From positions 29,930,186 through 29,994,185 of the forward strand of contig OZ034968.1 in assembly GCA_964030785.1 (NCBI GenBank): 64,000 bases of DNA, in the 5' to 3' direction. The notes beneath the pieces are model-generated. The model had not been told where the DNA came from and did not search any database. It worked only from the letters and a program-made list of their open reading frames with translations. This document shows, one piece after another, positions 27,395 to 62,049 of this stretch. Source of the DNA: Siderastrea siderea. Its lineage: Eukaryota; Cnidaria; Anthozoa; Scleractinia; Rhizangiidae. A program made the translations under genes and the position numbers. How positions within the stretch are numbered: the stretch's first letter is position 1; each line of letters begins with the position of its first letter.

Positions 27395-30300
27395 TCATTC
27401 TCGGTCGCACAGCCCAGCGCAATTGCACAGTGCTGTGCACGGCAGTTCGGCTTTAACGCATTTGCATCGTCCTGCACAGCCTCTTTCACTCCTGCAACCA
27501 CATTTCAATAGCTTCTGACAGCTCTGTGATGCCTGGGGAATTGTCATCCACAAGGGCGCCCACATATCATTAGCGACTTTCACCCAGCCCCATTCACTTG
27601 AACACGGAAGCGGAGGAGACGGCACCAAGGAATTGCCCCAGCAGTGGCCAGCCTGGCACGTGGACCTCTTTGCATGTTGATGTAAGGCATCTGAGGTGAA
27701 AGGAATGGCTTCAATATCTCTCCCTTTACGTGTAAATTGGTCCTTCCGCGCATCATTTACTTTCATGCAAGCGCTGGTACGATCATACATGATGGTGACG
27801 TATCGCTCAAGAATAGGCATCACCTCATCCACAACATCCACCGTTGGAGCATTGCTAAGAGCTTGGAAAGCTGCCGTCACCTCATTGAACGCGCCCCACG
27901 CTTCCAATGCTGTCTTTTTGCCATAGTGGGCAAAAGACGACGTTTGATCACAGCCTGTGAAGGCGTGAAATGGGAGGAGAGCCCGTGACGTTTCTTCGCC
28001 AATACTACAGGATATGTCGTGTGCTGGCAAATATTTCAGGTGTTTGCCAACACCAAACTCAATCTAAAGCTCGGATAAGGAAAGGTATTGGAATTTTGCA
28101 ACTGCGATGACTACAACATCCGTATCGACAGTGCGTACCATTACTTTAGTGTACCCACGTCTTGCAGCGTCAGCGGCATGTAGTAGGAGCCTCGTATCGG
28201 CTTCTTCGTACGTGCAAGGTGATAGATCTGCGGCGTCAGTTCTGTCATTGTTAAAGACTACTGACTCATGTTTAGTAGATACTACTTCTCCATGGTCAGT
28301 TCCAATTGTAATAAGCTGCTCGGCCAGGTAAAGGAAAAGCTCCTCTTTGTTCTCATCAACCCTCAAAAAGGCTGTCCAATTTCCTGGGATCCTGGTGTCT
28401 GGTCTGACGCGTCTACGGATACCGTTTCCTCTCTTGCTTCGTGCAGATCTTTAAGACTGCCCGGGAGATATCTGTCCCAAACCACATCCACCCTCTCGAC
28501 ATTCCTTAACTGGTTTGTTACGTATGGAAGGAAGACGGTCTCGCTGTACTCTTGAAATGTCTTGGAGGCTCCAGGCTTAAGCATGTTAACGATGGCTGCA
28601 CCATCTAGTAGCAGGGCTTCAACAGATGGCCTTTGTGCTTGCGCTGGTCCATTCTTCTCGAGACACGATAACAAATCCGATTTGGTACCAGATCTGAGCT
28701 TCCCATACTGAGATAACGAAGGGGGAAAACTCTGGTTCTCGTGACCAAGGAATCCTTCCAAATCACCATCCCTGACTGACCTGACATGAAATGTAAAGAC
28801 GTGAAAACAGAGAGCAGTTGCTTTTTAGTGATGCTATCTTGAGTTTATCGCTAGACTTCTCTTTTGTAGCGGGAGGACTGCTGATTAGTGGCAACTTGTT
28901 TTTCTGGATTGTGTCAAACAGTGGTGTTGTTCCCTCCTGCAGCCTTTTGGTAACAAACTGCTGATACTGATCCTTGCCTAGTTGCTTTACAGTTCTGACC
29001 GTTTCAACAACCTTGGAATCCGCAATGTCACGGGTGTGTAGCACAAGCAAATCTCCAGTTTGGTCTGCGAAGGGGTTGCCCATTTCTTCAATGGTGCTAC
29101 AAACTGCGTTCACTTGATTGCGGAAAGTGTTTTGGACCCCTTTCATTTGCTCGTGGTGGCGTAAATCTTCTTGCTCTACTTGTTTCGCTATATTCCTGAC
29201 CAATTCCTGGGACAACTCGAAATCGTTGATTATTCTTGACATTTCTGGTCCAGATACCATCCAGCGCAATAATTGAGTTGAACTCTCTCTTAAGCCAATA
29301 GCTCCTCCGTCACCTTTGACGATCTTGTTGTTTTGCTCATGCGCTTGATCAATGGGAAGCGAGGAAAATTGCACGGTTGGTTTTATTCACTACAAAATTA
29401 CTGTTCTTGAACTCTGCAGCTATTGCTGGAATTTCTGTTTCAAGACATTCCATATCGCGAACTGATGAACTGGACCGGACGAAAATCAGAATGGTGAGCT
29501 GGAAGTGAAGCGTAAGCGACCAGTAATGAAATTGTGAACTTTCTAGCTCTGCTTGCTTGCACCAGTCGCTGAATGACATGGGCTCTTCTCCTTCATCAAC
29601 ACCCTCCCGATAGCTCTTGTATGCCTTATCCTTAAGGATATACAGAGCAGCAGCAGTAACTTGATATGCGTGGCGGGTGCGTGAAACGTGCGAAGCTTTG
29701 AGAAAAGAATCAGCGGTACCTGGAGTTATCACGCCAGCTTGTACTAAAACGCTGGTCCAACCACTATCCTCTATCAAGCTTCCTAGTGCCTTGAGAGCCG
29801 CAAGCTCAATATGAAATCCACCAAACATTACCACCAGCTTTTTCTCACCAAACACTGTCGGAAAGTTCCATTGAATCTCCTTGGCAATGGTATAAAGTGG
29901 CTGATCGCAGGCGAGAACTGAAACCTGCCCTTGATTTAGGAATTTCACTGCTTTTGTGATTACGTCGATAGCATGGCAAATCATAGCCGCTTCTTCGTGA
30001 AATAAAGGTAGCAACGAGGTTCTACTCAACTGATTTTTTCGATTAGGAAGTAGCTTGTTTGCGTGGAACACTGCCCATGAGATTTGCAAGATATTTTGTG
30101 ATATTTCTCTGTTCAGCTCATCTCTTAAATGCTCTAGCCATTTATACTCTAAACTGAATGCTTCTTTCACTCCAGGGCAGATTCTCACAAACGGACCTTG
30201 AAGAGGAGGAACATCTGGCTCGTTCTTGGGAAGGATAACTGGTCTTACGGCTGTGTAAGAATCAGGAAGTCGAGCAAGACGATTTGTCTTCGAAGGCTGA

Positions 30301-31117
30301 TTGTCAATGCTCACCATCTCTCGCTCTTCTCCTGGAGCATAGGAAGTGGGATGTTGAAATAACGATATGCCAGTTCCATGGAAAGCACCTTGCGCAGTTA
30401 CAGAACTCTGGCTGTGGTCAATATTGTCCACGGCAGCAGTTGTGAAAACTCCTTTAAGAAGCTTAGGCGGACAAATGACTCCTTCTGATTCAAAGTGCGC
30501 GCAAACACTGTTTCCCATATCAGTCGATAATTCCAACACTCTATCATACGAGATCGACAATCCCAGATTGTAGAGCTTATCAACAAGTGTACGCTTTCGC
30601 CTTTCTGCGTGAGTCATGAGGCCTAGATAAATGGGCAGTGGCGGCTCGCGATCTCTGGAATGGTAATATGAAGCACCTGTTGTACCGTTGTCACGGCGCC
30701 TTTTGGTTGTACCAAAGGCGATACCTTGGAATCTCTTTTCATTTCCATTAATTGTACTCTGTTTCGACCTCTCTGCTTTGTTATAAAGTGCTACCAGGCA
30801 TTTCGCATGATAAACTGCTTCTTGAGAAATCATATCGCCTGCACTCAATTTCGCAATTAACGTCTTGTCTTGCAACTGATGCGCGCACTCGCGAACCCTT
30901 GTATCTATAAAGTCGAGGCTTCAAGAAGCGCTTCTGAGGAACGTCCACAGAAAAAGCAGCTTTTTTCGGCTTTTGAAGTGGTTGCACCAGAACATGCCCT
31001 TGTAAATTTAGAACGTTGAGGGAATTCAAGCTCTTCTTGTCTTTTCCGTTTGTCTGCTCTTTTCAGCTTCATGTTAGTAAATTTATTTCTACAGGATGTG
31101 TTCAATTGACTAACCAA
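27395..31117 (-). pseudogene. Academ-like transposase gene, copy A (degraded)
   Basis: Open pieces in order from the 5' side are: 30905-31117 (basic region and CFFCG), 29349-30875 (EAVYHAKC, PLPIYLG, DNIDHS, FHGTGISLFQHPT, ACDQPLY, FGGFHIELAALKALG), 28763-29374 (DQAHEQNNKIVKGDGGAIGL), 28363-28761, 28064-28366 (YEEADTRLLLHAADAARRG, VRTVDTDVVVIAV) and 27395-28030 (HAFTGCDQTSSF, then a C-x-C-rich end and stop). The N-terminal exon, about 150 central residues, and a segment after LTILIFVRS are deleted relative to copies B and C. The cysteine cluster CGCRSERGCAGRCKC is still whole. The copy cannot make a full protein. Confidence 0.75.
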
Positions 31118-32083
31118 ATCTTTACGAACTGCCTCTACACGTGTGTGGGAATAATAACCTGGCCAATTACGACACTTTGTTGGTTTCCTCAGGCACAGAA
31201 AAAAGGTTTAAAATTTGTGGTAGATGAACTTTATTGCATTTTCGGTTACACAGTTAGAGATATATGAATCGTATAAATTGTGGCTTTGAACCAATTTGGT
31301 GGAAAAGGTGAAATATGGATCTTTTTTTCCTTTCATCTCACTCTGCTTTCGGAAAAAAACCCATTGGATAGCCGTTTCAATTTGTTTTGCTAGCCTTCTA
31401 ACTCAAGAAGAAAAGAATTTAAAAAGAAGTACGAATAAAAATGAAAAAAAAAACAGGCAGGAAATATCGTTTTGACTAAAGATGTTCACGTTTAACAACC
31501 CGTGAATAGCCGGTACGATTTCTATTTTTATCAACAGCCTATTTTTCGTTATGTTAATTGCTTCAATCGAAATTTTTAGGGCAGCGTTACAGCCCTATAT
31601 TGACGAGGCTGAAAAAAAATATTATCACCGTATTGATCATCGTTTTCTTGTCTATTGTGAAATATATTTTCACCCCAAACCATCCATCAATATCAGTGCA
31701 GTATCGCCGTATCAAATTTTTATTAGTTATGTCACGATACTGTACGTGCAATCACGTGACCTGTCACGCGATCAACTGAAACGACTCCACGATCAAAGAA
31801 AAGGAAATATATTAAGTAATTCTCCACTTTGGAGGACTGTCGCTCTTTTGATGCAGGACTGTGGCTGCTACACGAGAAACAGAATACCAGCCTAGTTCCT
31901 ATGCTAGAATTTCACCAATTTGAGCCACCTTAAACCCGTTGAAACTGCAATTATGGGATACTTCCCAGGTGGGTCCATAGCTAATATTGTTTAGTAGGTA
32001 TGTCTCTATCTATGTGCCAAATTTGGTGCTTTTACCATAAATCCCACAATTCCGTCATATTTTTGCACCAATCTGCCGGACTA

Positions 32084-35620: not shown

Positions 35621-36434
35621 CTACGTAGAAAAACGCTTTTTAACTTGTTTTACGCTTACGCGGCTTTGCAAGTTTACTGGTACAGCGTTTGAAATTTCAT
35701 GAATGTTGAGCTTAGCTTGTCTGAAATTAAGTTGTCGCAATACTCAATATGTTTCTTCAAAACGTTTAGCTTTTGTTAGTTTTTCTGTCTTTTAAGCTGA
35801 ATGCATACGACGATGCGTGAATTGTATACAAATATAACCGAATCCTTCGCAGACAAAGCAAATTGAGAGATTGTGTAAAGGTGGCTTGTCTTGTAACGAA
35901 CCAGTTATCGACTAATTTCGTGAATCTGATTGGCTATGGAGGTGACTAATGTTCCAGAAACCGCCTTGACAGCGCGAACATGGAAAATTTGCTGAAAGCA
36001 AAAATTAAGCAAAGCCACTGAGTACGTAAGTTGAACATTCCGTCACGTCAACCGGTTATTCTTAATGATATGCAGGGAGTGCTCGCTCTCTCATGACTTT
36101 AATAGTTGGCTCGGGGATGGCCAACTAGCTATCAGCCGATAGAAATCTCCTGGTAGATTGATAAGATATACATATATACTGCTCACCCTATTCTCTTGCC
36201 TTTAATAGTTGACATGGGGCTGACCGTTTATCAGTCCACTGAACGTGTAGCTTACAGTTTAGATCACTGCTAGTAACTAAAAAAATGAATCAGAGAAGCA
36301 TAGGGATCACTGAGGGAGGGAGACGAATTTGGTGAAGGTTGCAAAATGGTTCATTTACAGCAGACATCTTAGATATTGTTGTGTTGTTAGGACCGACCTG
36401 AGTACTTGACGTGGCTAAAGTGGTCGCAGACCTT
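35621..36434. other. Intergenic, nothing recognised
   Basis: AT-rich DNA without family-like open frames. A pair of short related blocks near 36100 and 36200 (CTTTAATAGTTG) is the only structure noticed. Confidence 0.35.
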
Positions 36435-38042
36435 AGTGGGAAGTAGCAAGAAGCGACAGGCCTGCACAACTTCTAACAACGGAACACTTATATGATGTTG
36501 CCTCTTAATCAGCGCCTCTTGTAAATCCGTCAAACCTTGCTAAACCCGAAAAAACTCACGGGAGCATTGCGCCAGAACAAGAGATAAATCCGGTTCAAAT
36601 TCCCCACCCCGCTTCGAAGGCAACGTTCAAATTCCTCCCTTCCCGGGCACAATGCACAGTCAAATGCTCGGGGTATGCCGGGGGGAGGGGAGATGTTGAA
36701 CTTTCGAATTGATCGGCGCATAATATGTATGTGATTTTTAAGAAAGGATATGAACAGTGGCTGTTAAAAGATTTGTCGTTGCAATGACTGTCTTTGTTTT
36801 ATAAAGTGCCATTTTTTCGTTAAAACGTGTATGAGGGTTGGCACGGTTTGTTGACATTGTGTTCAGTCAAATGTGGAACAAATAGCCCCTTTCGAAACTG
36901 TCAGTTTCGTGTCCATGGAGCTTGATATGTTTCCTCCTTTTGTAAGCAAGTCTTTCGACCGCCGATTTGTACAGGCAAGACCATGGTTTCGACCCTCCAC
37001 ATGGGTCTCATCAGTTGCCGGGATTGCTTTTGTGAGTTGCTCGTTATAGGCAAGCTCATGTACATTGTGAGAATGACATGACATTCTGTTTGGCATACCT
37101 GTCTTGAGGCTACATTAGATAAATGTTTCCACTGATAGAAGTTGAGCAGGCCTGTCGCTCCTTGCTACTTCCCAAATATGAAAGAAGAAAAAAAAGGTCG
37201 AAAGACCGAGATATAGAACGCGTGGCTAACAAATAGTAACACTACCGCCCAAATATAAACACATGTGTTAGACAATTGCATATCAGCACTCAGTAAACAT
37301 CACAGAGGAGCGGAAGAGCAATTTGCACCACATTTAAAGCAACTACACTGCAGCTATGCAAAATAACGTACGCTTCAAATCAGATAACGGTCAACTCCTC
37401 ATTTCAACCTGACACATAATGATAAAATGTCAAATAACGCAACATATACAAACACGCGTAAGCTTCAAACTGATAAGTATCGAAAACCACATTTGGCTAC
37501 CTTTGATTGACCAATGGAAATCCTGAATTTCCGATCCACACAGTGAGTATAAATACACAACGGAAAGCCTTTGCCAACAGAATGTCTTGTCATTCTCACA
37601 AAGTACGTGAGCTTGCTTATAACGAACAACTCACAAAACCAATCCCGGCAACTGACGAGTCCATGTGGAGGGTCGAAACTATGGTCTTGCCTGTACAAAT
37701 CGGCAGTCGAAAGACTTGCTTACAAAAAGAGGAAACATATTTATTATTATCAAGCTTCATAGACACGAAACTGACAGTTTCGATAGGGGCTGATTGTTAC
37801 ACATTTGACTGAACACAATGTCAACAAACGGTGCCAAACCTCATACACGTTTTAATGAAAAAATGGCACTTTATAAAACAGACAGTCATTGCAACGACAC
37901 ATCTTTTAACAGCCACTGTTTATATCCTTTCTTAAAAATCACATACTTGTCAGTGCAAAAATATTAAGAGGCTACATTAGATAAATGTTTCTATTGTTAG
38001 AAGTCGTGCAGGCCTGTCGCTCCTTGCTACTTCCCACTACTA
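36435..38042. mobile_element. 1.6-kb compound inverted-repeat element
   Basis: The outer ends are inverted copies: TAGTGGGAAGTAGCAAG at 36436 and its reverse complement ending at 38041, continuing through GCGACAGGCCTGCAC. Inside, 36725-37099 and 37561-37950 are inverted copies of each other over about 380 bp (AGAAAGGATATxAACAGTGGC, AGTGCCATTTTTTCxTTAAAACGTG). A second copy of the right end lies at 37107-37175 in direct orientation. A target duplication was not identified. No protein was recognised; the element is non-autonomous or a foldback structure. Confidence 0.65.
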
Positions 38043-40559: not shown

Positions 40560-41320
40560 ATATTTGCTGCCCCAAAAGATGGATTTGCATAGGTGGCAAA
40601 TATGAACCAAATACCATGTTTGCTGTACTTTGATAATATTTGCACATCAGTCAAATTTTGTGTTTGGAGCACATTTGCAAGCAAAGCAAAGTTGGTAAAT
40701 ACCGCGTTTACTCGATAGTTACCTGGACAGCAAATATGAAGCAAATGCCATGTTTGCTTTACTTTGGTCATATCTGCACGTAAATCAAATGACGTCTTTG
40801 CACCACATTACAAACAAAGCAAAGATGGTAAATACCGCGTTTACTCGATAGTTACCTGGACAGCAAATATGAAGCAAATACCATGTTTGCTTTACTTTGG
40901 CCATATCTGCACGTACATCAAATGACGTCTTTGCACCACATTTACAAACAAAGCAAAGATGGTAAATACCGCGTTTACTCGATGTTTACATGGATAGCAA
41001 ATATGAAGCAAATGCCATGTTTGCTTTACTTTGGCCATATTTGCACGTACGTCAAATGACGTGTTTGCACCACTTTTACAAACAAAGCAAAGATGGTAAA
41101 TACCGCGTTTACTCGATGTTTACATGGATAGCAAATATGAAGCAAATACCATGTTTGCTTTACTTTGGCCATATCTGCACATAAATCAAATGACGTGTTT
41201 GCACCACATTTATAAACAAAGCAAAGATGGTAAATACCGCTTTTACTCGATGTTTACATGGATAGCAAATATGAAGGAAATGCCATGTTAATTTTTTCTT
41301 TGGTCATATTTGCACATGAA
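40560..41320 (+). repeat. 134-bp tandem repeat in the CACTA-like element
   Basis: The landmark AAATACCGCGTTTACTCGAT recurs near 40698, 40831, 40965, 41099 and, slightly changed, 41233, a spacing of 133-134 bp; a diverged unit lies at about 40460. Each unit carries GCAAATATGAAGCAAATxCC, ATGTTTGCTTTACTTTGG and TTTGCACCACxTTTA. Tandem arrays near CACTA termini may act as transposase-binding regions. Confidence 0.8.
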
Positions 41321-42159
41321 TCAAATCTCGTGTTTGGGCCACATTTCCCAGTGAAGCAAAGAAGGTGAATACAGGTCTTTGCTCCATATTTACATACCGT
41401 AGCAAACGTGATAAATTTGTACACATTTAAGACAAATTCACTCCAAAAGTAATTATGAAGCACGGTCAAATACAGTGTATATACTGCACGAAAAGATGGT
41501 TTTACCTGAATAGGAAATATGACAAAAATGCAAGGTTTGCTTTCCGTTGGTCACATTTGCTTGCTCTTTTAGGCAAACCTTAACAATAACCTCGACAACA
41601 ACTGTACTCTAAAGCATGTTCAGCAAAATGCCAATATTTATTCTTATTTCAGGGAGTGTTAGTCTTTTTTGAAGCAACAGTTAATTTAGCTGACCGTAGA
41701 GATAATTTTAAGGGCTAAATACATGTATTATCACCAAAGTTTTTGTATATCAACTAATGCACCCAAGTTCCCTATTTCAAGTACAGTTCTACTTGCAATT
41801 ATTAATTCAAATGTACAATATCAAATCAATTTTTGTGGTCACAAAACTAACAGCACACTATATAGTCCAGCAATATGGTGAGATAATTGTGCACATTTGG
41901 TTAAAAGCATAAAACTTGGCATACTTATAGTATAGCACAAACAGATTAATTTCAGCTATGGGCCCACCTCGATTTCTTCCAGGGGGGTGCAAATTCGCTA
42001 CCTACAGGGGAGGGGTAGGGCAAATAACTGAAAAATCGTTAAAATTTGTTTATACCTAGTCAAATCAGCTCTTATCTTACAAAATTACGTCTCTAATAGC
42101 TTTATTATATTTCAAGCTTGAAATGATGCTGATTTCTTCAGGGGGGGACACTTTGGGAT

Positions 42160-42181
42160 ACTCAGGGGGGAGGGGAGGGGA
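42160..42181 (+). other. G-quadruplex-prone tract in left arm of element C
   Basis: Runs of 6, 4 and 4 G (GGGGGGAGGGGAGGGG) follow another G-run about 20 bases upstream, and a second cluster lies at 41982-42019. The right arm carries the complementary C-rich copies at 47590-47630, so both strands can form such structures at the two ends. Confidence 0.5.
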
Positions 42182-42381
42182 AGTAAACTTGTTTGTAATA
42201 TCTCTAAACGTATAACAATGAGAGTTTTATAAATATTTTTATGTTGACAATATTAAGTGGTGTTTACTTATCCTTCCTGATGCTCGTAGCTCGCACATCT
42301 GAAGGTTAAATAAATATGTTATCATTAAAAGCAATCTTTATTGACAAATTCCTTATTGCATTACTGTGGTTACCTGGACAG

Positions 42382-42624
42382 TCAATCACGTTGGCAATCG
42401 CCACCACATTTGCAGAGAGCGGTGCATTGCATCTCTGCTTTTCTGCACTTGCAGTGTCCTTTGCAGCCCTTTTCCATGCGGCAACCACATCGCAGAAGTT
42501 CTCTACAGGCCTTAGATGCTTCTGGGAGGGTCATCCATAGTGGTTTCCACAACTGGTCTTCAGACATGGTCCATCCCCATTCAGAGGGAGAGGGGATGAC
42601 AGGACATGGGATATCACATTGTCC
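42382..42624 (-). CDS. Academ-like protein C, C-terminal eight-cysteine cluster
   Basis: In frame with the main ORF, just after its TGA stop, the translation continues through EWGWTMSEDQLWKPLWMT to CGCRMEKGCKGHCKC and QCTALCKCGGDC, ending at 42382. Cysteine spacing is C-x-C-x6-C-x3-C-x-C-x6-C-x3-C-x-C, an eight-cysteine zinc-binding pattern. Copy A reads GHCWG across the junction in one open frame, so the TGA stands where TGG is expected. The cluster is therefore part of the same protein, cut off by a single nonsense change (or recoded, which is less likely). Confidence 0.65.
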   Translation of the reverse strand, partial: GQCDIPCPVIPSPSEWGWTMSEDQLWKPLWMTLPEASKACRELLRCGCRMEKGCKGHCKCRKAEMQCTALCKCGGDCQRD

Positions 42625-45600
42625 TCAACAATGGCCGGCTTGGTAGGCTACTCTCTTTGTGTGAAGCTGCAAGGCATCTGATGTGGGAGGGATATTCTCA
42701 ATAGATCTTCCTTTCTGGGTAAATAGGACTTTACGGGCCTTATTTACGTTCTCGCATGTACTTGTTCGGTCGTACATCAAAACCACAAATCTCTCCAGCC
42801 TTGGCATCGCACTAACAATATCTTGCTCAGTTGGCGACTGACTCAAAGACAAAAATGCGATAGTGACTTCTTCATATGCCATCCATGTTTCCCAGGCTGT
42901 AGTTTTACCTCGACCAAGAAAGGCGGACGTCTGATCGCATCCAGTAAATGCATGGAAAACATGGAGAGTACTGGATTTCTGAGGACCAAGAGCTCGTACA
43001 ATGGAATGCACAGCAATGTATTTAAAATACTTGCCCACGCCAAATGCAATCCACAGTTCATCAAGATTCAGTCTGCTGAATACAGAAACGGCTATCACAA
43101 CAACATCAGTGTCTACTGTTCTTATCAGGACTTTTTTGAGTCCTTGTCTGGCACAGTCTGCTGCGTGCAAAAGAAGTCTCGTGTCAGCTTCTTCATGTGT
43201 ACAGGGGGAGATGTTGTCCGTTATCTGTGCAGATGAGGAAAGCACCAGACTGTCCTTTGTAACCAGCACACACTTCCCTTCATACTGGGCCAAACCTGTC
43301 TGCTCAGCGAGGTAGTGGAATAGCTCAACCTTGTTGGAATCTACTTTGAGGAACTGGGGCCAGTTCTTTGGAAGCTTGACACCAGGTTCTACCCTTTGTC
43401 GGATACCTGTCCCTCGCTTACTTCGAGTTGAGGCTTTCAAACTGTTGTCGACATAAATATCCCATATAATGTCAACTCTCTGAACACTTAGCAGCTGTGC
43501 TTCAATGTATGGCAAGTATGTTACATTTACATAATCTGTAAATGTCCTGGATTCCTTGCTTGGTTTTAGCATATTCACCAACGCTGCACCATCAATAAGT
43601 GTAGCATCTACTGTTGGGTGCCTTTGACATCCCGGAGATAGCTTCTCCAAGCACTTCATTAAATCAGATTTGACACCTAGTTTCAAATCTCCAAACTGAG
43701 AAATAGATGGTGGATACGCTTGGTTCTCGTGAGTAAAGAACTCGTCAAGATTTCCCTGTCGAACCTGGCAAGACACATACAACTGCGAAAATAGAGAGCA
43801 GTTTTGCTTTAGGGAAACCACTCCTTGTTTTTCTTTGGAAGGCGGCTTTTGTGGATTGCTGAACAAGGCCAACTTGTTGCGCTTTATGACATCCATTACT
43901 CCTTTTTCTTTCTTTATAAGGCGTTCCTCCACGAACGAATGAAATTGCTGCAAACCGACTTTCTCTATTTCTTTTACTGTTGTTATGACCTTTTCACTTG
44001 CAATTTCTTTGGTATCAAGAACCAGCAGGTCATTGCTTTCCTCTTTGAATGGGTTTCCCATGCCTTCTATAACCTCTATAAGCGCTTGAACTTGCCTCTT
44101 GAAGTTCGTCTGAACACTGCTCACTTGGTCATGATGACGCATATCTGGACCTTTGCTTTGGTTGGATTTGATAACATCAAGTTGGGCCTCAAATGTGACT
44201 GCAGCACGAGCAACTTCTGGCCCTGATACCATCCATCTTAATAGCTGCGACGAGTTCTCTGTCAAACCAACTGCTCCGCCATCTCCTTTGACTAGTTTGT
44301 TGTTTTGTTCATGAGCTTGATCAAGTGATATTCCAGAGAACACTCTCTGGGTCTTGTTGACGACGAAATGTCCTTGTTGAAACTTTCCTTCAACGTTTGG
44401 ATGGGATTCGCTCAATTTCACCATATCATGTATATGGATTGGTAGCCATCGGGCGTAGTGGAAATGGTCGAGCGCAAAATGCAATGGGACCAGTTGCTTC
44501 AAAGATTCTTGGTAGAGGTTAAAATTGCCTTCCCGCAACGACTGGACAAACATCAGAACTAGGAGCTCAAACTTAAGTGTCAAAGCCCAATACAAGAATT
44601 GAGGACTTTCTGATGACTTCAGGTGATGCCACTGCCAGAAGTCGAGTTGCTGATCCTCTTCAGTTAACGCTTGGGAGAACTCCAGGTATGCTCTATACAT
44701 AAGAACATAAAGGCTGCTTGCTGTAACTTCATGGGCATGCCATGTTCGTGATATATGTGACGCTTTTAGAAACGACTCTGCAGTGCCAGGTGATGCTATG
44801 TTGGCTTGAACTATTGCGCTAGTCCAGCCACTACCACCAAGCCAATCCCCCAAAGCTCGAAGAGTTGCTGCTTCAACGTGCAATCCTCCAAGTATGATAA
44901 TGAACTTCGATTCTCCATGGGTCTCAGGCCAGTGCCATTGGATTCTTTTGGCGATCGCATAGAGTGGTTGGTCGCATGCAATTACAGGAATCTGGCCTGG
45001 ATTTAACACTTGCACTGACTTGTTGACTATATTCATTGCATGGAGTATCATCGCGACTGAATGAGCTTCCTCTTGAAAAAGTGGCAACAATGAGTTGATA
45101 TCCGTCAACCTGATTGTATTCTGAGGGATTCTACTTGCATAGAATGCTGCCCATGACAAAGACATGATTTGAATTTCATCATTGCTTTCGTTCCCGTCTA
45201 GCTCATCTTTGACGTGATTCAGCCATTCGTACTGTGCTGTAATGTCGACAGTCTGCTCTTTAAACTGATCCAGAGAAACGCTGGTTTCAGGAAACGATGG
45301 CTCTTTTGCCCAAGGATCTACGGGGGGGACGCTTGAATAGTCCTGTGGAAGTGGTGTGATTGACTTGGTAGACTCAAATGCAATGGTTGGTGTGAATTCT
45401 CGCTCTTGGCCTGGATTATCAGGAGTCGGATGCTGAAAAAGTGAAATTCCTGTACCATGTAGCGATCCAGTAGCTGTAGTGGAACTGGGATTGTGATCGA
45501 TGTTGTCAAGTGCACTTGTGGTGAACAAACCAGTTCGGAGATTTATCGGACAGACTGCATTTTCCTCCTCAAATTGTGCACAAACTCTGTTTCCCATTGC

Positions 45601-46374
45601 TGTAGAAATCTCCAGAACTCTGTTATAAGATATGGAAAGTCCAAGGTCATACAATTTGTCAACTAAACCTCTTTTCCTGGTTTCAGCGTGTACCATGACA
45701 CCAAGATAGATGGGCAGTGGTGTCTCTCGAGCTTTAGCATGGTATGCGGCTACTGAATTTTTACGACGTCGAACAATACAGTTGTACCTAATTAGCTGCG
45801 ATGTGCTCAGAGCGGCTTGGATTTCAACAACATTGCTTGATTGATCTTCAATATTTGTACCACCCGTTATCATCTCTACTAGGGACAGCAACGATGGTGG
45901 GACAGAATTCTCTTGGCATTCTGTCTCGAATGTTCCAGAAAACTCATTGTTTTCCATAGCAAGAATATCTCGACGAACGATTTTAGCTGCTTTAGAAAGA
46001 ATCATTGCATCGCAATCATAACTTATTTCTGCTGATTTCTTCAGGAGTTGCCCGACGTCTTCGTCGAATGCCAAAATTACATCACGACCATCTTTATACT
46101 CTTTCAGACCAGGGCAGTAAGCTAGGATGCGTTCCTTTAGCCTTGTGCTGTGAATGCGTTTTGAAACATCAACATGAAGTTGTTTGAGCCTTGTTTCATA
46201 CATTTTGGTGATATTTGCTAATTTAAACACTGGACTAACATTTGAATCTCCACGACTGTCCTCTATGAATGATATGAGCTCTGCTAGCGCTATACCTTCC
46301 TGAACTGCCTCATACGTGGTATCTTCAGATCCCTGTTCAACATTGCAGCTTTTTTGTAGAGCGTTGCTAGACAT
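42625..46374 (-). CDS. Academ-like transposase with XPG/FEN-like nuclease module, copy C
   Basis: This uninterrupted frame of 1,249 codons is the longest in the window. Motifs in order are: KERILAYCPGLKEYKDG, ETPLPIYLGVMVHAETRKRG, TSALDNIDHNPSSTTATG, GTGISLFQHPT, VIACDQPLYAIAKRIQW, ILGGLHVEAATLRALGDWLG, HFALDHFHYARWLPIH and DQAHEQNNKLVKGDGGAVGL. Near the end come HEEADTRLLLHAADCARQG, IRTVDTDVVVIAV and HAFTGCDQTSAF with GRGKTTAW. The E-x-x-D, D-T-D and GCD series matches the metal-binding order of XPG/FEN-type PIN nucleases. The DQPLY aspartate and the DQAHEQ glutamate are candidates for a DDE-type transposase core, but that is inference. It is expected to act in the nucleus on the element's ends. 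The listed ATG at 46374 is not the real start: the protein continues upstream in another frame. Confidence 0.75.
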   Translation of the reverse strand: MSSNALQKSCNVEQGSEDTTYEAVQEGIALAELISFIEDSRGDSNVSPVFKLANITKMYETRLKQLHVDVSKRIHSTRLKERILAYCPGLKEYKDGRDVILAFDEDVGQLLKKSAEISYDCDAMILSKAAKIVRRDILAMENNEFSGTFETECQENSVPPSLLSLVEMITGGTNIEDQSSNVVEIQAALSTSQLIRYNCIVRRRKNSVAAYHAKARETPLPIYLGVMVHAETRKRGLVDKLYDLGLSISYNRVLEISTAMGNRVCAQFEEENAVCPINLRTGLFTTSALDNIDHNPSSTTATGSLHGTGISLFQHPTPDNPGQEREFTPTIAFESTKSITPLPQDYSSVPPVDPWAKEPSFPETSVSLDQFKEQTVDITAQYEWLNHVKDELDGNESNDEIQIMSLSWAAFYASRIPQNTIRLTDINSLLPLFQEEAHSVAMILHAMNIVNKSVQVLNPGQIPVIACDQPLYAIAKRIQWHWPETHGESKFIIILGGLHVEAATLRALGDWLGGSGWTSAIVQANIASPGTAESFLKASHISRTWHAHEVTASSLYVLMYRAYLEFSQALTEEDQQLDFWQWHHLKSSESPQFLYWALTLKFELLVLMFVQSLREGNFNLYQESLKQLVPLHFALDHFHYARWLPIHIHDMVKLSESHPNVEGKFQQGHFVVNKTQRVFSGISLDQAHEQNNKLVKGDGGAVGLTENSSQLLRWMVSGPEVARAAVTFEAQLDVIKSNQSKGPDMRHHDQVSSVQTNFKRQVQALIEVIEGMGNPFKEESNDLLVLDTKEIASEKVITTVKEIEKVGLQQFHSFVEERLIKKEKGVMDVIKRNKLALFSNPQKPPSKEKQGVVSLKQNCSLFSQLYVSCQVRQGNLDEFFTHENQAYPPSISQFGDLKLGVKSDLMKCLEKLSPGCQRHPTVDATLIDGAALVNMLKPSKESRTFTDYVNVTYLPYIEAQLLSVQRVDIIWDIYVDNSLKASTRSKRGTGIRQRVEPGVKLPKNWPQFLKVDSNKVELFHYLAEQTGLAQYEGKCVLVTKDSLVLSSSAQITDNISPCTHEEADTRLLLHAADCARQGLKKVLIRTVDTDVVVIAVSVFSRLNLDELWIAFGVGKYFKYIAVHSIVRALGPQKSSTLHVFHAFTGCDQTSAFLGRGKTTAWETWMAYEEVTIAFLSLSQSPTEQDIVSAMPRLERFVVLMYDRTSTCENVNKARKVLFTQKGRSIENIPPTSDALQLHTKRVAYQAGHC

Positions 46375-46909
46375 TTGGTATGATACGTTGCATCTAGAGC
46401 TGGCATATCGCCAGCACTGAGCTTAGCCAACAACATAGTATCATTTAGTTTCAGGGCACATTCTCTAACTTTGGAATCTACATTCAGAGTTGAAACTCTG
46501 TGAAGTTCCCCTGACTCTTTTTCACAGAAAAAACAAGACTTGACATTTGTTGCAGATGTAATACGGCGCATCTTTTTACTGTCCTCAAATTTATTGTCTG
46601 ATGCGGGATCTGCCGATCTTTTTTCAGCTCTCTCTAGTTTAAGGTTGCTAAATCTATCCCTACAGGATTTGTGCCACTTAGCCTTGTTAGTATTCAGTGC
46701 TCCTGCCAAGGTATTATCTTGAGAGGAAAGACCTGCCACATTAACCTCGATAGGCATACGACCAAGATCGTGAAATCGTTGTATGTTAGCAGCAAGGTTC
46801 TCATACCATGATTCAACTCCTGCTTGTTTGGAATCATACGGACAGCGCAGCCTCTCTGCTGTTTCTTTCTGACACAATATACATCTCTTCCAGTCAATAG
46901 GATTGTTTT
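46290..46909 (-). CDS. Academ-like protein C, N-terminal Cys/His region (exon 2)
   Basis: From the acceptor AAAG at 46910 the frame reads ENNPIDWKRCILCQKE, later KWHKSCRDRFSNLKLER, SCFFCEKESGELH, and DATYHTKCLATLYKKA. The repeated C-x2-C and H-x3-C pairs suggest DNA-binding zinc modules. The frame ends at 46290, while the main ORF starts 85 bases earlier in the -1 frame. The two meet at TACAAAAAAGCTGC (around 46350). Copy B passes the matching place (LYNKAERSK) without a shift, so C has lost or gained a base, or uses -1 slippage on the A6 run. Confidence 0.65.
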
Positions 46910-47037
46910 CTTTAAAATAATATTTTCAAATTGTCTTTAATTTTGGTGATTTATTATATTTTGAGCACTATCTAAAATCATGTAATTGTAAACATATTAT
47001 AAAGATTGCCATTGTGTACTGCACATAATAATCTTAC

Positions 47038-47056
47038 CTTTTGAATTGGTAGCCAT
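47038..47056 (-). CDS. Academ-like protein C, first exon (MATNSK)
   Basis: The ATG at 47056 encodes MATNSK plus one G, followed by the donor G|GTAAGATT. Joining to the acceptor at 46910 gives MATNSKENNPIDWKRC in frame, with a 128-bp intron. ATG context AACAACAATGG is good. This explains why no ATG precedes the zinc region in exon 2. Confidence 0.55.
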
Positions 47057-48683
47057 TGTTGTTACTTGTAATTACTTGCTAAATTTGTATATTTTTACCT
47101 TATGAAATCAATAAAATCAAATAAAGTCTCAATAAAATAGTCAAAAGAAGATATTTAACACAAAAGTAAACCACATTTTGAAGATGTTCTTGCTATTATC
47201 AAATTCGAAAAGAAGAAAATACCTGATGGATTTTTACTCAAATGAAAGAACTTTTTAATAATTACAGCTAAGATATAGAGTGTAAATTAATAAAAATACA
47301 ATATTCTCTTGCTAATATCAATAAGAGTTAATAGAAAGAATATAAACGTACCTCAAACCTTACAGAGCTTCTAGAAATGGCGACCATGGGGGCCGCCATC
47401 TTTAAGACCTTTGTAACCGAGCCTTCTCGTTCCCAGTCCTTTTTATACCGGTTGTCCCACAATTTAACTTAAATAATTTTTGGTTAAACTAAAATTGCAT
47501 AGGAACGCTGAATTTATATTGTCAACATAAAAATATTTATAAAACTCTCATTGTTATACGTTTAGAGGTATTACAAACAAGTTTACTTCCCCTCCCCTCC
47601 CCCCTGAGTATCCCAAAGTGTCCCCCCTGAAGAAATCAGCATCATTTCAAGCTTGAAATATAATAAAGCTATTAGAGACGTAATTTTGTAAGATAAGAGC
47701 TGATTTGACTAGGTATAAACAAATTTTAACGATTTTTCAGTTATTTGCCCTACCCCTCCCCTGTAGGTAGCGAATTTGCACCCCCCTGGAAGAAATCGAG
47801 GTGGGCCCATAGCTGAAATTAATCTGTTTGTGCTATACTATAAGTATGCCAAGTTTTATGCTTTTAACCAAATGTGCACAATAATGGTCTTTTTGTGCAC
47901 CATATTGCTGGACGAATAACACAAAACGATCAGTTTCTTGAATTGCAATCAGTGGTGACCAACAAATTCTTATTTTTTCATTACTAGGTAAAAGTGTCAT
48001 AACTAATCAATTTCTCTTTTGTAAAAACTGCCACCTTAAGTGTAAGAATACTAAAATTGCAATTGGTGTAAAGTTGGTGCAAATAAACAGAATTGCCATA
48101 ATGATAGCAAATGTAAGGGTAAGATATCCCATTTTGTTTATTTGCTACTCAAGTAAATGTGACAGTACTTTGATTTACGCCACTTGTTTGCGTGTTCGGA
48201 GATGAGTATGTTTGCTCCTTTAGTAAATATGGGGTAAATAAACCTAAATTTCCTGATTTGACCTTGGCGTAACGTTGGTGCAAATAGGCACAATTGCTAT
48301 AATAGTAAATGTGAGAGTAAGTAATGCAAATTTGTTTATTTGCCACTCAAGTAAAAGTGATGGTAATTTGATGCAAATAAGTTGATTTTCACCGCGTTTG
48401 CTTAGATTTACGGACTCCGTAAAAGTATTAATTTTTAAGGGTAGCAAAACTACAGCAAATAAATGTGAAATTTGAAAATTTACCTTGGTGGCAAAACTGA
48501 CACAAATCTGATGCAAACTTCGTGTTTACGTTACATTTGCGCTTATTTTCTGCAGGAGCAAGTGTGTGTCTTTGCTTCGACAATGCCGTCTGTGCAAATT
48601 TGTGACAAATTTAGAGCCCTAAATTTGCTACATATTTACTTCAGTTGCAAAGCTCGGTAAATCCGTCTTTTCGTGCAGTGTCA

Positions 48684-50034: not shown

Positions 50035-50901
50035 TGGTAGTCCGGCAGATTGGTGCAAGAATTGTGGAATTTATGGTAAAAGCACAAAATTTTGCACAAA
50101 GATAGAGAATTACCTACTGAACAATGTTAGCTACAGACCCACCTGGGAACTACCCCATCATTGTAATTATAACGGGTTTAAGGTGGCACACTACACTTTT
50201 AACATGGAAACGAGGCCGGGTGAATTGTTTCTTTATTTTCAGCAAAGTGAGACAATGTATCGAAAGAAATTAACAAGTTAAACCAAAAATGAATTACAAA
50301 ATGCATTCTGAGACATAATTGGCCTTCTTGTATGTTCACGTGACTAACCACGTGACCAAATACGCTTTTTAATACCAAGCATTGGTCTTTGTAATCTTAC
50401 CCTGACTCTCTCAATTTGCATCTTAGTTATTTGGTCAAGTTCATATATAGAAACTACGAAAATGCTATGAATCCATTTGGGATCCATCCCATTAAGATGG
50501 CTCACTGGACTTCTAACATGGAAACGAGGCTGGGTGAATTATCTATTTCCAGCAGAGTGAGACAATGTTCCGGAAGAAATTAACAAGTTTAACCAAAAAA
50601 TAATTACAAAATGCACTCTTAGACATTATTGGCCGTCTAGTGTGATCACGTGATCAACCACGTGATTAAATACGCTTTTTATGCCTAGCTTTGGACATAA
50701 TAAGCTTATCCCGGCTCTCTTAATTTTTATCTCAATTATTTGACCAAGTCCATATATAAAAACTACGAAACAGTAAAATCTTTGAAAATTAAGCCTAAAA
50801 ACGTCAAACCAACTTGCAAAAGCTAAAGACAAATTCATAGTTCATTGTTAATAATGCAAGCGATACGCATATTTGTTCATTTGCATCCGGCATTCTGTTG
50901 T

Positions 50902-53900
50902 TCATTCTCGGTCGCACAGCCCAGCGCAATCGCACGGCGCTGTGCACGGCAGTTCGGCTCTAATGCATTTGCAGCGTCCTGCTCAACCTCTTTCACTCTT
51001 GCGACGACATTCTTGGGGAATTGTCATCCACAAGGGCGCCCACATATCATTAGCGACTTTCACCCAGCCCCATTCACTTAGACACGGAAACGGAGGAGAG
51101 GGCACCAAGGCATTGCCCCAGCAGTGGCCAGCCTGGTACGTGGACCTCTTTGCATGTTGACGTAATGCATCTAAGGTGGGAGGAATGGCTTCAATATCTC
51201 TCCCTTTACGTGACAAAAGGTCCCTTCGCGCATCATTTACTTTCATGCAAGTGCTGGTACGATCATACATGATGGTGACGTATTGCTCAAGAATAGGCAT
51301 CACCTGATCCACAAGATCCACCGTTGGAGCATTGCTAAGAGCTTGGAAAGCTGCCGTCCCCTCATTGAACGCGCCCCACGCTTCCCATGCTGTCTTTTTG
51401 CCATAGTGGGCAAAAGACGACGTTTGATCACAGCCTGTGAAGACGTGAAATGCGAGGAGAGCTTGTGACTTTTCTTGGCCAATACTACGGGATATGTCGT
51501 GTACTGGCAAATATTTCAGGTGTTTTCTAACACTTGGACAAGGAAAGGTATTAGAATTTTGCAACTGCGATGACTACAACATCCGTATCGACAGTGCGTA
51601 CCATTACTTTAGTGTATCCACGTCTTGCAGCGTCAGCGGTATGTAGTAGGAGCGTCGTTTCGGCTTCTTCGTGCATGCAAGGTGATAGATCTGCGGCGTC
51701 AGTTCTGTCATTGTTAAAGACTACTGACTCATGTTTAGTAGATACTACTTCTCCATGGTCAGTTCCAATTGTAGTAAGCTGTTCAGCCAGGAAAAGGAAA
51801 AGTTCCTCTTTGTTCTCATCAACCCTCAAGAAGGCTGTCCAATTTCCTTGGATCCTGGTGCCGGTCTGACGCGTCTACGGATACCCTTTCCTCTCTTGCT
51901 TCGTGCAGAATCTTTAAGACTACCCGGGAGGTATCTGTCCCATTCCACATCCACCCTCACGACATTCCTTAACTGGTTTGTTACGTATGGAAGGAAGACG
52001 GTCTTGCTGTACTCTTGAAATGTCTTGGAGACTCCAGGCTTAAGCATGTTAACGATGGCTGCACCATCTAGTAGCAGAGCTTCAACAGATAACCTTTGTG
52101 CTTGCGCTGGTCCATTCTTCTCGAGACACGATAACAAATCCCATTTGATACCAGATCTGAGCTTCCCATACTGAGATAACGAAGGGGGGAAACTCTGGTT
52201 CTCGTGACCAAAGAATCCTTCTAAATCACCATCCCTGACCTGACATGAAACGTAAGGACGTGAAAACAGAGAGCAGTTGCTTTTTAGTGATCATATCTTG
52301 AGTTTATCGCTAGACCTCTCTTTTGTAGCGGGAGGACTGCTGGATAGTGGCAACTTGTTTTTCTGGATTTCATCAAACAGTGGTGTTGTTCTCTCCTGCA
52401 GCCTTTTGGTAACAAACTGCTGATACTGATCCTTGCCTAGTTGCTAAACAGTTCTGACCGTTTCAACAATCTTGGAATCCACAATGTCACGGGTGTCTGG
52501 CACAAGCAAATCTCCAGTTTGGTCTGCGAAGGGGTTGCCCATTTCTTCAATGGCGCTACAAACTGCGTTCACTTGATTCTGGAAAGTGTTTTGGACCCCT
52601 TTCACTTGCTCGTGGTGGCGTAAATTATCTTGCTCTTCTTGTTTCGCTATATTCCTGACCAATTCCTTTGACGATCTTGTTATTTTGCTCATGCGCTTGA
52701 TCAATGGGCAGCGAGGAAAATGCACGGTTGGTTTTCTTCACTACAAAATTACCGTTCTTGAACTCTGCAGCTATTTCTGGAATTTCTGTTTCAAGACATT
52801 CCATATCGCGAATATGAACTGGCAGCCATCTCAAGTAGTGGGTGCGGTCTAAAGCAAAAATCCACGGCACTAGCGATTTGCAGGCATCCTTGTAAAGTCG
52901 AAAGTTCCCTAACCTCAAAGACCGGACGAATATCAGAATGGTGAGCTGGAAGTGAAGTGTAAGCGACCCGTAATGAAATTGTGGACTTTCTAGCTCTGCT
53001 TGCTTGCGCCAGTCGCTGAATGACTTGGGCTCTTCTCCTTCATCAACACCCTCCCGATAGGTCTTGTATGCCTTATCCATAAGGATATACAGAGCAGCAG
53101 CAGTAACTTGATGTGCGTGGCGGGTGCGTGAAACGTGCGAAGCTTTGAGAAAAGAATCAGCGGTACCTGAAGTTGTCACGCCAGCCTGTACTAAAACGCT
53201 GGTCCAACCACTATCCTCTATCCAGCTTCCTAGTGCTTTGAGAGCTGGAAGCTCAGTATGAAATCCACTGAACATTACCACCGGCTTTTTCTCACCGTAC
53301 ACTGTCAGAAAGTTCCATTGAATCTTCTTGGAAATGGCATAAAGTGGCTGGTCGCAGGCGACAACTGGAACCTGCCCTTGATTTAGAAAGTTCACTGCTT
53401 TTGTGATGACGCCGATAGCATGGCAAATCATAGCCGCTGAAGCTGCTTCTTCTTGAAATAAAGGTAGCAACGAGCTTCTACTCAACTGGTTTTCTCCATT
53501 AGGAAGTAGCTTGTTTGCGAGGAACGCTGCCGATGAGATTTGCAAGACATTTTGTGATATTTCTCTGTTCAGCTCATCTCTTACATGCTCTAGCCATTTA
53601 TACTCTAAACTGAATGCTTCTTTTATTCCAGGGCAGATTCGTACAAACGGACCTTGAAGAGGAGGAACATCTGGTTCGTTCTTGGGAAGGATAACTGGTC
53701 TTACGGTTGTGTAAGAATCAGGACGTCGAGCAAGACGCTTTGTCTTCGAAGGCTGATTGTCAATGCTCACCACCTCTCACTCTTCTCCTGGGGCATCGGA
53801 AGTGGGATGTTGAAATAACGATATGCCAGTTCCATGGAAAGCACCTCGGGTTGTGGTCAATATTGTCCACAGCAGCAGTTGTGAAAACTCCTTTAAGAAG

Positions 53901-55301
53901 CTTAGGTGGACAAACGACTCCTTCTGATTCAAAGCGCCCGCAAACACTGTTTCCCATATCAGTCGATAATTCCAACACTCTATCATACGAGAGCGACAAT
54001 CCCAGACAATCCCAGATTGTAAAAGCTTATCACCAAGAGTCACGAGGTCTAGATAAGTGGGCAGTGGCGGTTCGCGATCTCTGGAATAGTAATATGAAGC
54101 ACCTGTTGTACCGCTGTCACGGCGCCTTTTGGTTGCATTGAAAAGCATCAGTTGAGAAATACTTAGACTTGTCTGCGCTTCCGTCATATCGCTTGACTGG
54201 GTCTTGATATCTGGTCCCCCCAAAATCATTCCAGTTAATGTTTTCAGAGACTCTGGGACAGATTCCTGCTGACAACTGTTATTAAATGTGCCGTTGAACT
54301 TAGATTTCGTGTCCAACATATCCCTACGAATTATCCTCGTTGCCTTAAGAAGGGTCATCGCCTCATTGTCAAAATCGCGTTCGCAAGCCTGTTGAAGCGC
54401 AGTAGCAACTTCGTCATTGAATGCTAAAAAAAATGTCTCGCCCTTTCTTATGAGCTTGAGGACCTGGAACATTTGCTAAGAGCCTTTCTTTAAGATCAGT
54501 AGAGTGAACTCGGCCAGACACCTCCACTCCAGGTTGTGCCAGACGGTTAGAATACATATCCGTAAGTTCTGCTAGCCTAAACACTGTCGGAGCGCTACCC
54601 TTTGTCTCGGCGCGCGTTTCATCTATATATGCAACTAGTTGTGCTAAGGCGATACCTTGGATTTTCTTTTCATTTCCATTAATTGTACTCTGTTTCGACC
54701 TCTCCGCTTTGTTATAAAGTGCTACCAGGCAATTCGCATGATAAAACTGCCTCTTGAGAAATCATATCGCCTGCACTCAATTCCGCAATTAACACCTTGT
54801 CTTGCAACTGATGCGCGCACTCGTGAACCCTTGTATCTATATTAAAAATCGAGGCTTCATGAAGCGTTTCCGAGGAACTTTCACAGAAAAAGCAGCTTTT
54901 TTCGGCTTTGGAAGTGGGTGCGCCAGAACACGCCCTTGTGAATTTAGAACGTTGAGGGGATTCAGGCTCTTCTTGTCTTTTCCGTTTGTCTCCACTTTTC
55001 AGCTTCATGTTACTGCAGGATTTTTGCAGGATTTCTGCAATTTTGCTTTGCTTGCTTTGCTTCTGCATAAGCGTTTCTGCAATCCCTCCACCCTCATCTA
55101 GCTTCTCAACATTTATGGGTATGAGCAAGCTTCGAATTTCACTAAATTGAAGAATGTTACTAGCCAAGGTGTGGTAGCCTGTTCCACACTCTATATCCGA
55201 TCTTCGGGAGATTCCTGGGCATTGGAGCGGTTCTGATGTTGTTTCCTGACACAAATTACATTTGTCCAGTCCACGCTACTACCATCATCTTGTTCAGTCA
55301 T
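50902..55301 (-). pseudogene. Academ-like transposase gene, copy B (degraded)
   Basis: The ATG at 55301 opens with MTEQDDGSSVDW and then needs a one-base correction to reach KCNLCQETTSEPLQC. Open pieces follow at 54712-55254, 53777-54472 (matching the C segment up to TKRRRDSGTTG), 52625-53773 (ACDQPLY, SGFHTELPALKALG, LRWLPVHIRDMECLE), 52444-52725, 51826-52137, 51551-51829 (HEEAETTLLLHTADAARRG, TVDTDVVVIAV) and 50983-51564 (HVFTGCDQTSSF). A deletion between IVKG and LVRNIAKQ has the short homology AGG at its borders. The EEAD aspartate is changed to E, and the cysteine cluster is shortened and ends in TGA. It is non-functional. Confidence 0.75.
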
Positions 55302-55659
55302 CGCAGTTATGTGCGATACATTGAAAACAAGGATTATCAGAAGGAACTTCAGATACATCACATAACGGGAAGCTGTATGGTCAAACGAAATACGGATAGG
55401 TGAGGGTCATGTCAAACGGTTGGCCTTTTAATAGCGGTGGAATAGACTGCGCTGATTAAATAATTTCAAAACAACTACCCTCAAAAATCTATTTCATGGG
55501 TTTTAAGTGATAATTTATCATGAAAACTGTTTTGAATATAAGAGAAGTGTAGAGCTGATTTAAGCTTATGGCGATCAGAAAAGCGAAGGACAAAATTGGC
55601 TAGTGAAAAAGACACATTGTTTGCTACTAGTACATTTTATCTACTAGTATTAATGTTTT

Positions 55660-55747
55660 ATTTACACACGACCCCACAAGCTATGTAGCTTTTTTTACCC
55701 CATCGTGTCTAAATAAAGGTTTTGTTGTTGTTGTTGTTGTTGTTGTT
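55660..55747 (+). repeat. Possible LINE/SINE 3' end with (GTT)n tail
   Basis: ACACGACCCCACAAG and CCCCATCGTGTC can pair around a short loop; AATAAAGG and then a (TTG)n run to 55747 follow. A terminal hairpin followed by a microsatellite tail is typical of CR1/L2-type LINE 3' ends. It lies in the leader of element B and is absent from A. The reverse transcriptase part is not present. Confidence 0.35.
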
Positions 55748-57138
55748 TGCCAAATCAGCAAAGCAAACGATGAAATGTAAATTTGATGAATGAAATTACA
55801 AAGGTGCACAGCCAATCACCAAGAAATTGCTTGCTTTGAAAAATGAGTAAAGGAGGTTTCGCTTCTAACTTTTCCCCTATCAAATAGCAGTTTTCATGTC
55901 CAGAAAGCAAACAGAGTACTTCGTTTAAGACTTAGCGAGATGTAAAATGGCTGCCAGGGATAGCCGAAGGTTTTCCCGCGCTGGCGCGATTTTTGTACAT
56001 TTATAATCTTAGCCTTTGTTTTCACTAAACATGGCAATAATTCAAACAAACTTCGTGAATTCAAATGTTAAAAAGTTCTTACCTTCATATGGTACTCCAA
56101 CCAAGTAATGAGTGCTATTAGCGATAATACAGTCGAAAACTAACTGAGCGATGTGTTCAATTGACTAAAAAAATCTTTGCGAACCGCCTCTACATGTGTG
56201 TGGGAATAGTAACCTGGCCAATTACGACACTTTGTTGGTTTCCTCAGGCACAGAAAAAAAGTTTAAAATTTGTGGTAGATTAACTTTATTGTATTTTCGG
56301 TTACACAGTTAGAGATATATGAATCGTATAAATTGTGGCTTTGAACCAATTCGGTGGAAAAGGTGAAATATGGATCTTTATTTTCTTTCATCTCACTCTG
56401 CTTTCGGAAAAAAACCCATTCGATAGCTGTCTCAATTTGTTTTGCTAGCCTTCTAACTCGAGAAGAAAAGAATTTAAAAAGAAGTACGAATAAAAAAGAA
56501 AAAACAGGCAGCAAAAGGAAATATCGTTTTGACTAAAGATGTTCACGTTTAACAACCCGTGAATAGCCGGTACGATTTTTTTTTTATCAACAGCCTATTT
56601 TTCGTTATGTTAATTGCTTCAATCGAAATTTATAGGGCAGCGTTACAGCCCTATATTGACGACGACGAAAGAAAATATTATCATCGTATTGGTCATCGTT
56701 TCCTTGTCTATTCTGAAATATATTTTCACCCCAAACCATCCATCAATATCAGCGCAGTATCGCCGTCTCAAATTGTTATTAGTTATGTCACGATACTGTA
56801 CGCGCAATCACGTGACCTGTCACGTGATCAACTGTACCGACTCCATGATCAAAGAAAAGCAAATATTTTAAGTAATTCTCTACTTTTGGAGGACTGTCGC
56901 TCTTTTGATGCAGGACTGTGGCTGCTACACGAGAAACAGAATCCCAGCCTCGTTTCCATGCTAGAATTTCAGTGAGCCACCTTAAACCCGTTGAAACTGC
57001 AATTATGGGATACTTCCCAGGTGGGTCCAGAGCTAACATTGTTTAGTAGGTATGTCTCTATCTATGTGCCAAATTTGGTTCTTTTACCATAAATCCCACA
57101 ATTCTGTCATATTTTTGCACCAATCTGCCGGACTATGG

Positions 57139-59802: not shown

Positions 59803-60224
59803 ACCCTTCGATAACGCGGAAATTGGTACGCAATCGATCTATATCTCATGTGGAAACATCAGGGCCCTCTTATGTCACATGATATTTTCGGCAATGTTGA
59901 CAGATGACTGTCAACACATAATTAGAGGAAGTTAATGGCTCTCACCTTTTTTCGTCCATAACTTTGCGTAGAAACAATCTTTTTTTCTGAAACTTTTTGT
60001 AAAGGAGAGGTTTGAATAATATCTATCTGAAAATGACAAAAGCGTAGTTTTTTGCAAAAGTGGTCAATTTTGGGGCCTGACCATGATACCTTAAGGTTTT
60101 AAACCGCTGCAAAAGCCGTGTACGATCAACCTTGCCCAACGTCGGATCAAAAAAGGCCGTGATCAGTCAAAATTTATTTTAAAAAAGTCACTATAAATCA
60201 TGATTGTCAAAAGAATCCTGTAGG

Positions 60225-61791: not shown

Positions 61792-62049
61792 TTTGTTACA
61801 CGAAGAAAGCGTGGCTCTTCGCGAGGGTTATCCACACGGAAAACATTCTCCTCATATGATTGGCTATTGTCTAACCCTCTTGAGACTCCACGATCTGTGG
61901 GTCGATCACAAAATAACCTGAGAGGCATTACCTATGGAATAAGGCTTGTATGGGGGATATACCCTTTCACTTGAAAATCTCTTGCAATGACTTATTTCAA
62001 TGAAAATTAATGTCTGTAGAAAAAGAGTGAAATTTGTATGTGAAAAGAT

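Follow-up and report, generated by a model that had tools for sequence, protein, structure and literature searches.

The 64,000-nucleotide (nt) window analyzed here, the whole stretch from position 29,930,186 to 29,994,185 on the forward strand of contig OZ034968.1 (Siderastrea siderea, assembly GCA_964030785.1), contains a 6,053-base-pair (bp) DNA transposon at 41863-47915 that we call B; all positions are window positions, with 1 as the first letter. Although the ~395-bp inverted ends of B are near-identical, they are not equivalent: after an 18-bp tip, the next conserved box follows a 5-nt spacer at the end on the 3' side of the gene and a 15-nt spacer at the end on its 5' side. The best explanation of our observations, which we consider probable, is that B is an AcademX-like cut-and-paste element with a fixed 5/15 inequality of its ends, paired as in the 12/23 rule, and with a DDE core and an XPG-type nuclease. 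The ends of B comprise the following features.

41860-41862, no strand: left copy of the target duplication (ATA, 3 bp, exact)
41863-42256, plus strand: left terminal arm, gene-3' side (arm complementarity, gapped alignment)
41863-41880, plus strand: left 18-bp tip box (tip pattern)
41881-41885, plus strand: left spacer, 5 nt
41886-41891, plus strand: left box 2 (ATTGTG)
47513-47915, minus strand: right terminal arm, gene-5' side, bearing 10 extra bp (arm complementarity, gapped alignment)
47877-47882, minus strand: right box 2 (ATTGTG)
47883-47897, minus strand: right spacer, 15 nt, exceeding the left one by one helical turn
47898-47915, minus strand: right 18-bp tip box, with one mismatch relative to the left tip (tip pattern)
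47916-47918, no strand: right copy of the target duplication (ATA, 3 bp, exact)

The window also contains two decayed relatives of B, which share its strand.

26416-32083, minus strand: element A, target duplication TCT, end spacers 5 and 15
50038-57135, minus strand: element C, target duplication TGG, end spacers 5 and 15

A and C form a second family and are ~90 to 94% alike over most of their length. In each of the three elements, ATTGTG lies 23 nt from the tip at the gene-3' end and 33 nt from it at the gene-5' end; for a further inner box, the corresponding distances are 91 nt and 101 nt. The arms of B are 100% complementary between 41883-42146 and 47622-47885 and 98% complementary between 42142-42256 and 47513-47627, while gapped alignment of the whole arms gave 388 identical columns out of 402, with 11 gap positions. 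The B tip pattern, allowing up to 3 mismatches, matched six times in the window, each time at an end of A, B, or C, relative to 0.49 matches expected from shuffles; arm complementarity and this count together rule out arms that arose by chance. A preliminary description of this DNA had placed the element at exactly the coordinates found here and had reported the exact ATA duplications and two almost identical arms. The near-identity of the arms stands, the arms are not fully symmetric, and a reading of B as an element with symmetric terminal inverted repeats is ruled out by the 10 bp added at one end in every copy. Neither this inequality nor the presence of A and C had been mentioned.

The preliminary description had also proposed counting genomic copies with identical arms. 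In the 831-Mb assembly, at least 14 of whose contigs exceed 40 Mb, the left arm of B occurs at 31 places, namely 15 inverted pairs on nine large contigs and one partial match on a tenth; the 15 pairs spread over nine contigs rule out an assembly artefact as the source of the arms. The 15 paired copies share 98.95 to 99.57% pairwise identity (mean, 99.3%; gaps excluded), and the main frame is uninterrupted in two of them (1,511 and 1,514 codons), so intact copies exist. Given this similarity and these open frames, B's family has undergone a recent genome-wide burst, and the earlier view of B as a young element holds.

Judged by either or both of two anchors, each of the 15 copies combines a short end with a long one, and the long end is on the gene-5' side in all 15. 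One copy without an exact box 2 at its long end (L013) and another without an exact inner box at one end (L015) were each scored by the other anchor. The consensus arms of the family differ only in columns 19 to 33, in column 291, and beyond the end of the arms at column 408; column 291 is a run of G with one G more in 9 of the 15 left arms. In copy L021, both arms carry the same two private changes, at alignment columns 69 and 217, as expected from arm-to-arm conversion, yet its spacers remain unequal.

The same arrangement recurs in other families of this genome. A protein search of the genome, with scoring limited to the best 31 of 2,763 candidates, led to 18 places of such families, and both flanks were fetched for seven of these, picked mainly for long matches. 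Five of the seven (a, k, g1, h, and i) had both ends, with the 15-nt spacer on the gene-5' side, the 5-nt spacer on the gene-3' side, and exact 3-bp duplications; for the other two (b and g4) only the gene-3' end was found, with a spacer of 5, and the second anchor of g4 lies at 39 rather than 40. Thus, all 22 elements with both ends (the 15 B-family copies plus A, C, a, g1, h, i, and k), which represent six families, carry the same 5+15 pair in the same polarity. Their target duplications are exact 3-bp repeats in 18 of 22 cases and one base off in three, and the remaining element has a mutated tip and no match. On the gene-3' side of g1 and h (L030 and L034), a second, inner end copy lies ~350 nt inside the first, with tip-like letters starting AAGTC, a 5-nt spacer, and the box; only the gene-3' end type is duplicated.

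The nuclease regions of the six families are 34 to 54% identical (A and C, 73%; g1 and h, 91%), and the mean pairwise identity of their tips is 0.66 and 0.69. The spacers, in contrast, average 0.39 for the long one (0.31 when shuffled) and 0.52 for the short one (0.44 when shuffled). Since these values barely exceed the shuffled ones, spacer length is conserved far better than spacer letters.

We also counted ends by pattern across the genome, which gives lower bounds. The pattern GGCAGATTGGTG-(0 to 17 nt)-ATTGTG found at least 85 ends, and its reversed control found 0. The spacer was 15 nt at at least 45 ends and 5 nt at at least 40, with no other length among the ends found, and 31 of 31 pairs of convergent neighbors found within 10 kb combined 5 with 15; 23 of the ends found had no partner. 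One pair (C13:41806853-41807739) is only ~0.9 kb apart and is probably a non-autonomous copy. A second pattern, GGCGGATATGTG-(0 to 17 nt)-ATTGTG, found at least seven ends, with a spacer of 15 at five, 5 at one, and 3 at one. This last, lone end (G000:C2:27022689-27022709, in the a-type family) is the single departure from spacers of 5 and 15 in the combined 92 ends of the two patterns.

How old the arrangement might be was gauged from protein relatives. At an E value of 1e-3, scoring of 7,986 candidates gave 285 relatives, of which the top 120 were listed. The top listed relative is 99% identical to the query over 81% of its length, with the tail present, and the genera named among the 120 include ones that we take to be coral, sea anemone, annelid, amphioxus, fish, beetle, and crab. 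No relatives with DNA context were found in the viral contigs, prokaryote genomes, or plasmids searched. In a tree of 125 sequences (117 of the 120 listed proteins, each covering at least 380 columns, plus eight elements from the S. siderea genome), the six families are scattered: i, g1, and h stand apart from k, and both stand apart from the group of a, B, and A/C, with uneven support along the backbone. Family a groups with Nematostella and Oculina proteins (clade support, 0.91), and B is 41 to 53% identical to the named proteins of other phyla in the tree. By these protein comparisons, families inside this one genome appear to differ from one another about as much as those of different animal phyla do, so the 5/15 rule, although observed in one genome, is likely of old origin.

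B carries a single long gene on the minus strand, arranged as follows.

47038-47056, minus strand: proposed first coding exon, with ATG at 47056, followed by a short intron to ~46910 (splice-site-like letters only)
46290-46909, minus strand: N-terminal frame with two CxxC...HxxC zinc-finger-like motifs; a frame change falls within 46290-46422
42625-46422, minus strand: main open frame, 1265 codons, closed by an in-frame TGA at 42625-42627
44023-45525, minus strand: modelled RNase-H-type transposase core with a helical insertion (structure model)
42628-43674, minus strand: predicted XPG/FEN-type nuclease domain (EXO1/FEN1/XPG fold and acid conservation)
42382-42624, minus strand: C-terminal tail, 80 codons, in frame past the TGA; a nine-cysteine CXC cluster occupies 42394-42489

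The frame change and the in-frame TGA are the coding lesions, in line with the two visible ones first described. In the modelled core, which is nearest to Hermes (best Z score, 8.6), HzTransib, and RAG1, the proposed catalytic acids are D306 (45505-45507), D484 (44971-44973), and E705 (44308-44310), and this predicted core supplies the DDE/RNase-H transposase core characteristic of AcademX. The expected set of nuclease acids (D944, D988, E1077, E1078, D1080, D1104, D1106, and D1163) is intact in B and invariant in 61 aligned sequences; our protein alignments included 60 (alignment A2) and 59 (alignment A3) of the 120 listed relatives, with P0113, which lacks the core region, left out of A3. 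The fold and these acids bear out the XPG/FEN-like module of the preliminary description, and the 3-bp duplication, predicted DDE core, nuclease, and CXC tail likewise support its Academ-like label. Its eight-cysteine cluster, however, has nine cysteines by our count, with a spacing that we take to be of the CXC (tesmin/TSO1) type. Searching Pfam and PDB sequences with B's main frame returned no family and no chain, and a Foldseek comparison of the core with the PDB gave no row at an E value of ≤0.001, a result that is uninformative taken alone.

B sits within repetitive DNA, with diverged ~134-bp tandem repeats to its left at 41000-41400 and a repeat with ~200-bp spacing to its right at 48063-48372. 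The location of A, B, and C within 31 kb suggests an insertion-rich stretch. Other structures in the window include one at 36434-38039 with long inverted arms (90 to 96% alike), outer letters TAGTGGGAAGTAGCAAG, and a tip that is not Academ-like; a large fold-back-like structure at 60209-63557 with several nested inverted arms (81 to 92%); and a small inverted-repeat element at 12033-12465 with 66-bp arms (92%) and CAGCGTGACGTCACGACACGC near its ends. The last borders an open frame at 12457-12963, whose product, judged by eye, could be a host membrane protein. At 1-958, inverted arms of 127 bp that are 99% alike lie 704 nt apart, perhaps representing another young element cut by the window edge.

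Two spacer lengths one turn apart, one of each per element, constitute a 12/23-like rule, and by analogy this arrangement may act in synapsis. In the mechanism that we favor, the transposase would contact two sites on a single DNA face, the 18-bp tip and the inner box, and a difference of 10 bp, or one helical turn, would keep both contacts in phase while making the two ends non-equivalent. One short-spacer end would then be brought together with one long-spacer end, as RAG does with 12/23 signals, and the DDE core, resembling Hermes, HzTransib, and RAG1, would cut, probably by way of a flank hairpin. With less confidence, we suggest that branched or hairpinned DNA left by the core might be processed by the XPG-type nuclease on the same chain, whose main alternative role would be second-strand cutting. 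RAG and hAT transposases leave such processing to host enzymes, with Artemis opening hairpins for RAG. Hermes and RAG both form hairpins on the flank (PMC6900584), and if an Academ core does the same, the XPG-type nuclease would be an obvious candidate to open or trim such hairpins. A bolder reading, which we advance tentatively and consider rather doubtful, is that Academ performs a self-contained V(D)J-like reaction, in which ends are paired 5/15, a RAG/hAT-type core forms flank hairpins, and these are opened by the XPG-type nuclease on the same chain; a rule of the 12/23 kind would in that case be old and widespread among transposases with such a core rather than a RAG specialty.

The inequality could instead have nothing to do with pairing. 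The extra 10 bp might serve transcription or repression, as promoter spacing or a transposase-bound operator, and the long spacer does always lie on the gene-5' side (15 of 15 B-family copies, A, C, and the five other elements with both ends). We nonetheless find this unlikely, since the extra 10 bp lie ~0.86 kb from the proposed start codon (47056), among the end boxes, and since the first matched codons lie at distances from the gene-5' tip that vary by several hundred bp among a, g1, h, i, and k while the 10-bp step stays constant. A functionless accident inherited from one ancestor would accord with the common ancestry of all the elements and with the slight similarity of spacer letters over six families (for the long spacer, the 0.39 versus 0.31 given above). 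Such an accident seems improbable, however, because every family for which both ends are available keeps a step of precisely 10 even though the spacer letters are largely lost, and because indels or arm-to-arm conversion should have wiped it out in B-family arms that are otherwise identical.

We regard it as very improbable that these elements form a separate superfamily near hAT/Transib or the Pfam DUF6589 group and are merely Academ-like. In favor of this reading, the Academ label comes from described features, the core model has Hermes, HzTransib, and RAG1 as its closest matches, 7 of the 120 relatives in the list have a precomputed DUF6589 domain, and of six relatives scanned, four of them chosen for being so marked, 3 pass the DUF6589 cutoff; the DUF6589 family is named in no paper of the literature searched. 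The nuclease of Academ is of the XPG type, and our assignment of B to AcademX follows from its 3-bp duplication, predicted DDE core, and XPG/FEN-type nuclease. The AcademX lineage is described as having 3- to 4-bp duplications and an encoded nuclease (PMC10045372), both of which B shares, and B, at 6 kb, is close in length to curated Academ elements of bivalves, which average 5,565 bp (PMC10294476); both points argue against a separate superfamily. AcademH, described as having a helicase in place of the nuclease and 9- to 10-bp duplications (PMC10045372), has the superfamily name in common with B. We rejected an AcademH identity for B, given its 3-bp duplication and the lack of any helicase in Pfam scans of its three frames (E up to 1) or of six relatives (E up to 0.5).

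B thus fits a young copy of an Academ-type (nuclease-bearing, AcademX-like) DNA transposon, as assigned by described features, and is itself an ordinary, if young, Academ member. The new part is its unequal ends, and this novelty is provisional: the literature searched, which left out the founding Repbase report and the AcademH paper, yielded no account of unequal ends in Academ. As a superfamily of eukaryotic transposons, Academ has received little study, and no mechanism for it turned up in the literature searched.

RAG pairs 12/23 signals, one short-spacer end with one long-spacer end, and the tips of RAG and Transib carry a CAC-type heptamer. ProtoRAG is reported to require 27/31 ends and to make a 5-bp duplication (PMC8289069), and some Transib elements are reported to bear 12/23 ends (PMC8355894). 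Like B, then, RAG1/2, ProtoRAG, and some Transib elements have two boxes parted by two spacer lengths and an unequal pairing (PMC8289069, PMC8355894), and the predicted fold of B's core may resemble the RNase-H core of RAG1. They differ from B in their end letters, in its spacers of 5 and 15, and in its duplication of 3 bp rather than the 5 bp of ProtoRAG; relative to RAG, no RAG2 was seen in B, and the nuclease shares a chain with the transposase. With a B-type tip of TAGTC and 3-bp duplications, the ends do not place B in RAG/Transib.

The transposase of the Drosophila P element is a THAP-domain enzyme that uses GTP, and hAT elements make 8-bp duplications and are not known to have an XPG domain. 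Hermes, a hAT element, is nearest to the core model of B (Z score, 8.6), but the 3-bp duplications of B and its relatives exclude hAT membership. End asymmetry is called a requirement for the activity of Hermes, whose ends differ by the layout of subterminal repeats (PMC10368747), unlike the spacer step of B. The P element also has unequal ends, likened in print to 12/23 signals, and an 8-bp duplication (PMC7776569) versus the 3 bp of B. A strict one-turn inequality of ends across families offers a concrete, testable rule for Academ. If it is true, Academ would join the short list of systems reported to use unlike ends (RAG, ProtoRAG, some Transib elements, the P element, and Hermes), and its RAG1/Hermes-like core with a nuclease on the same chain may exemplify transposition in which the element supplies its own DNA-end processing.
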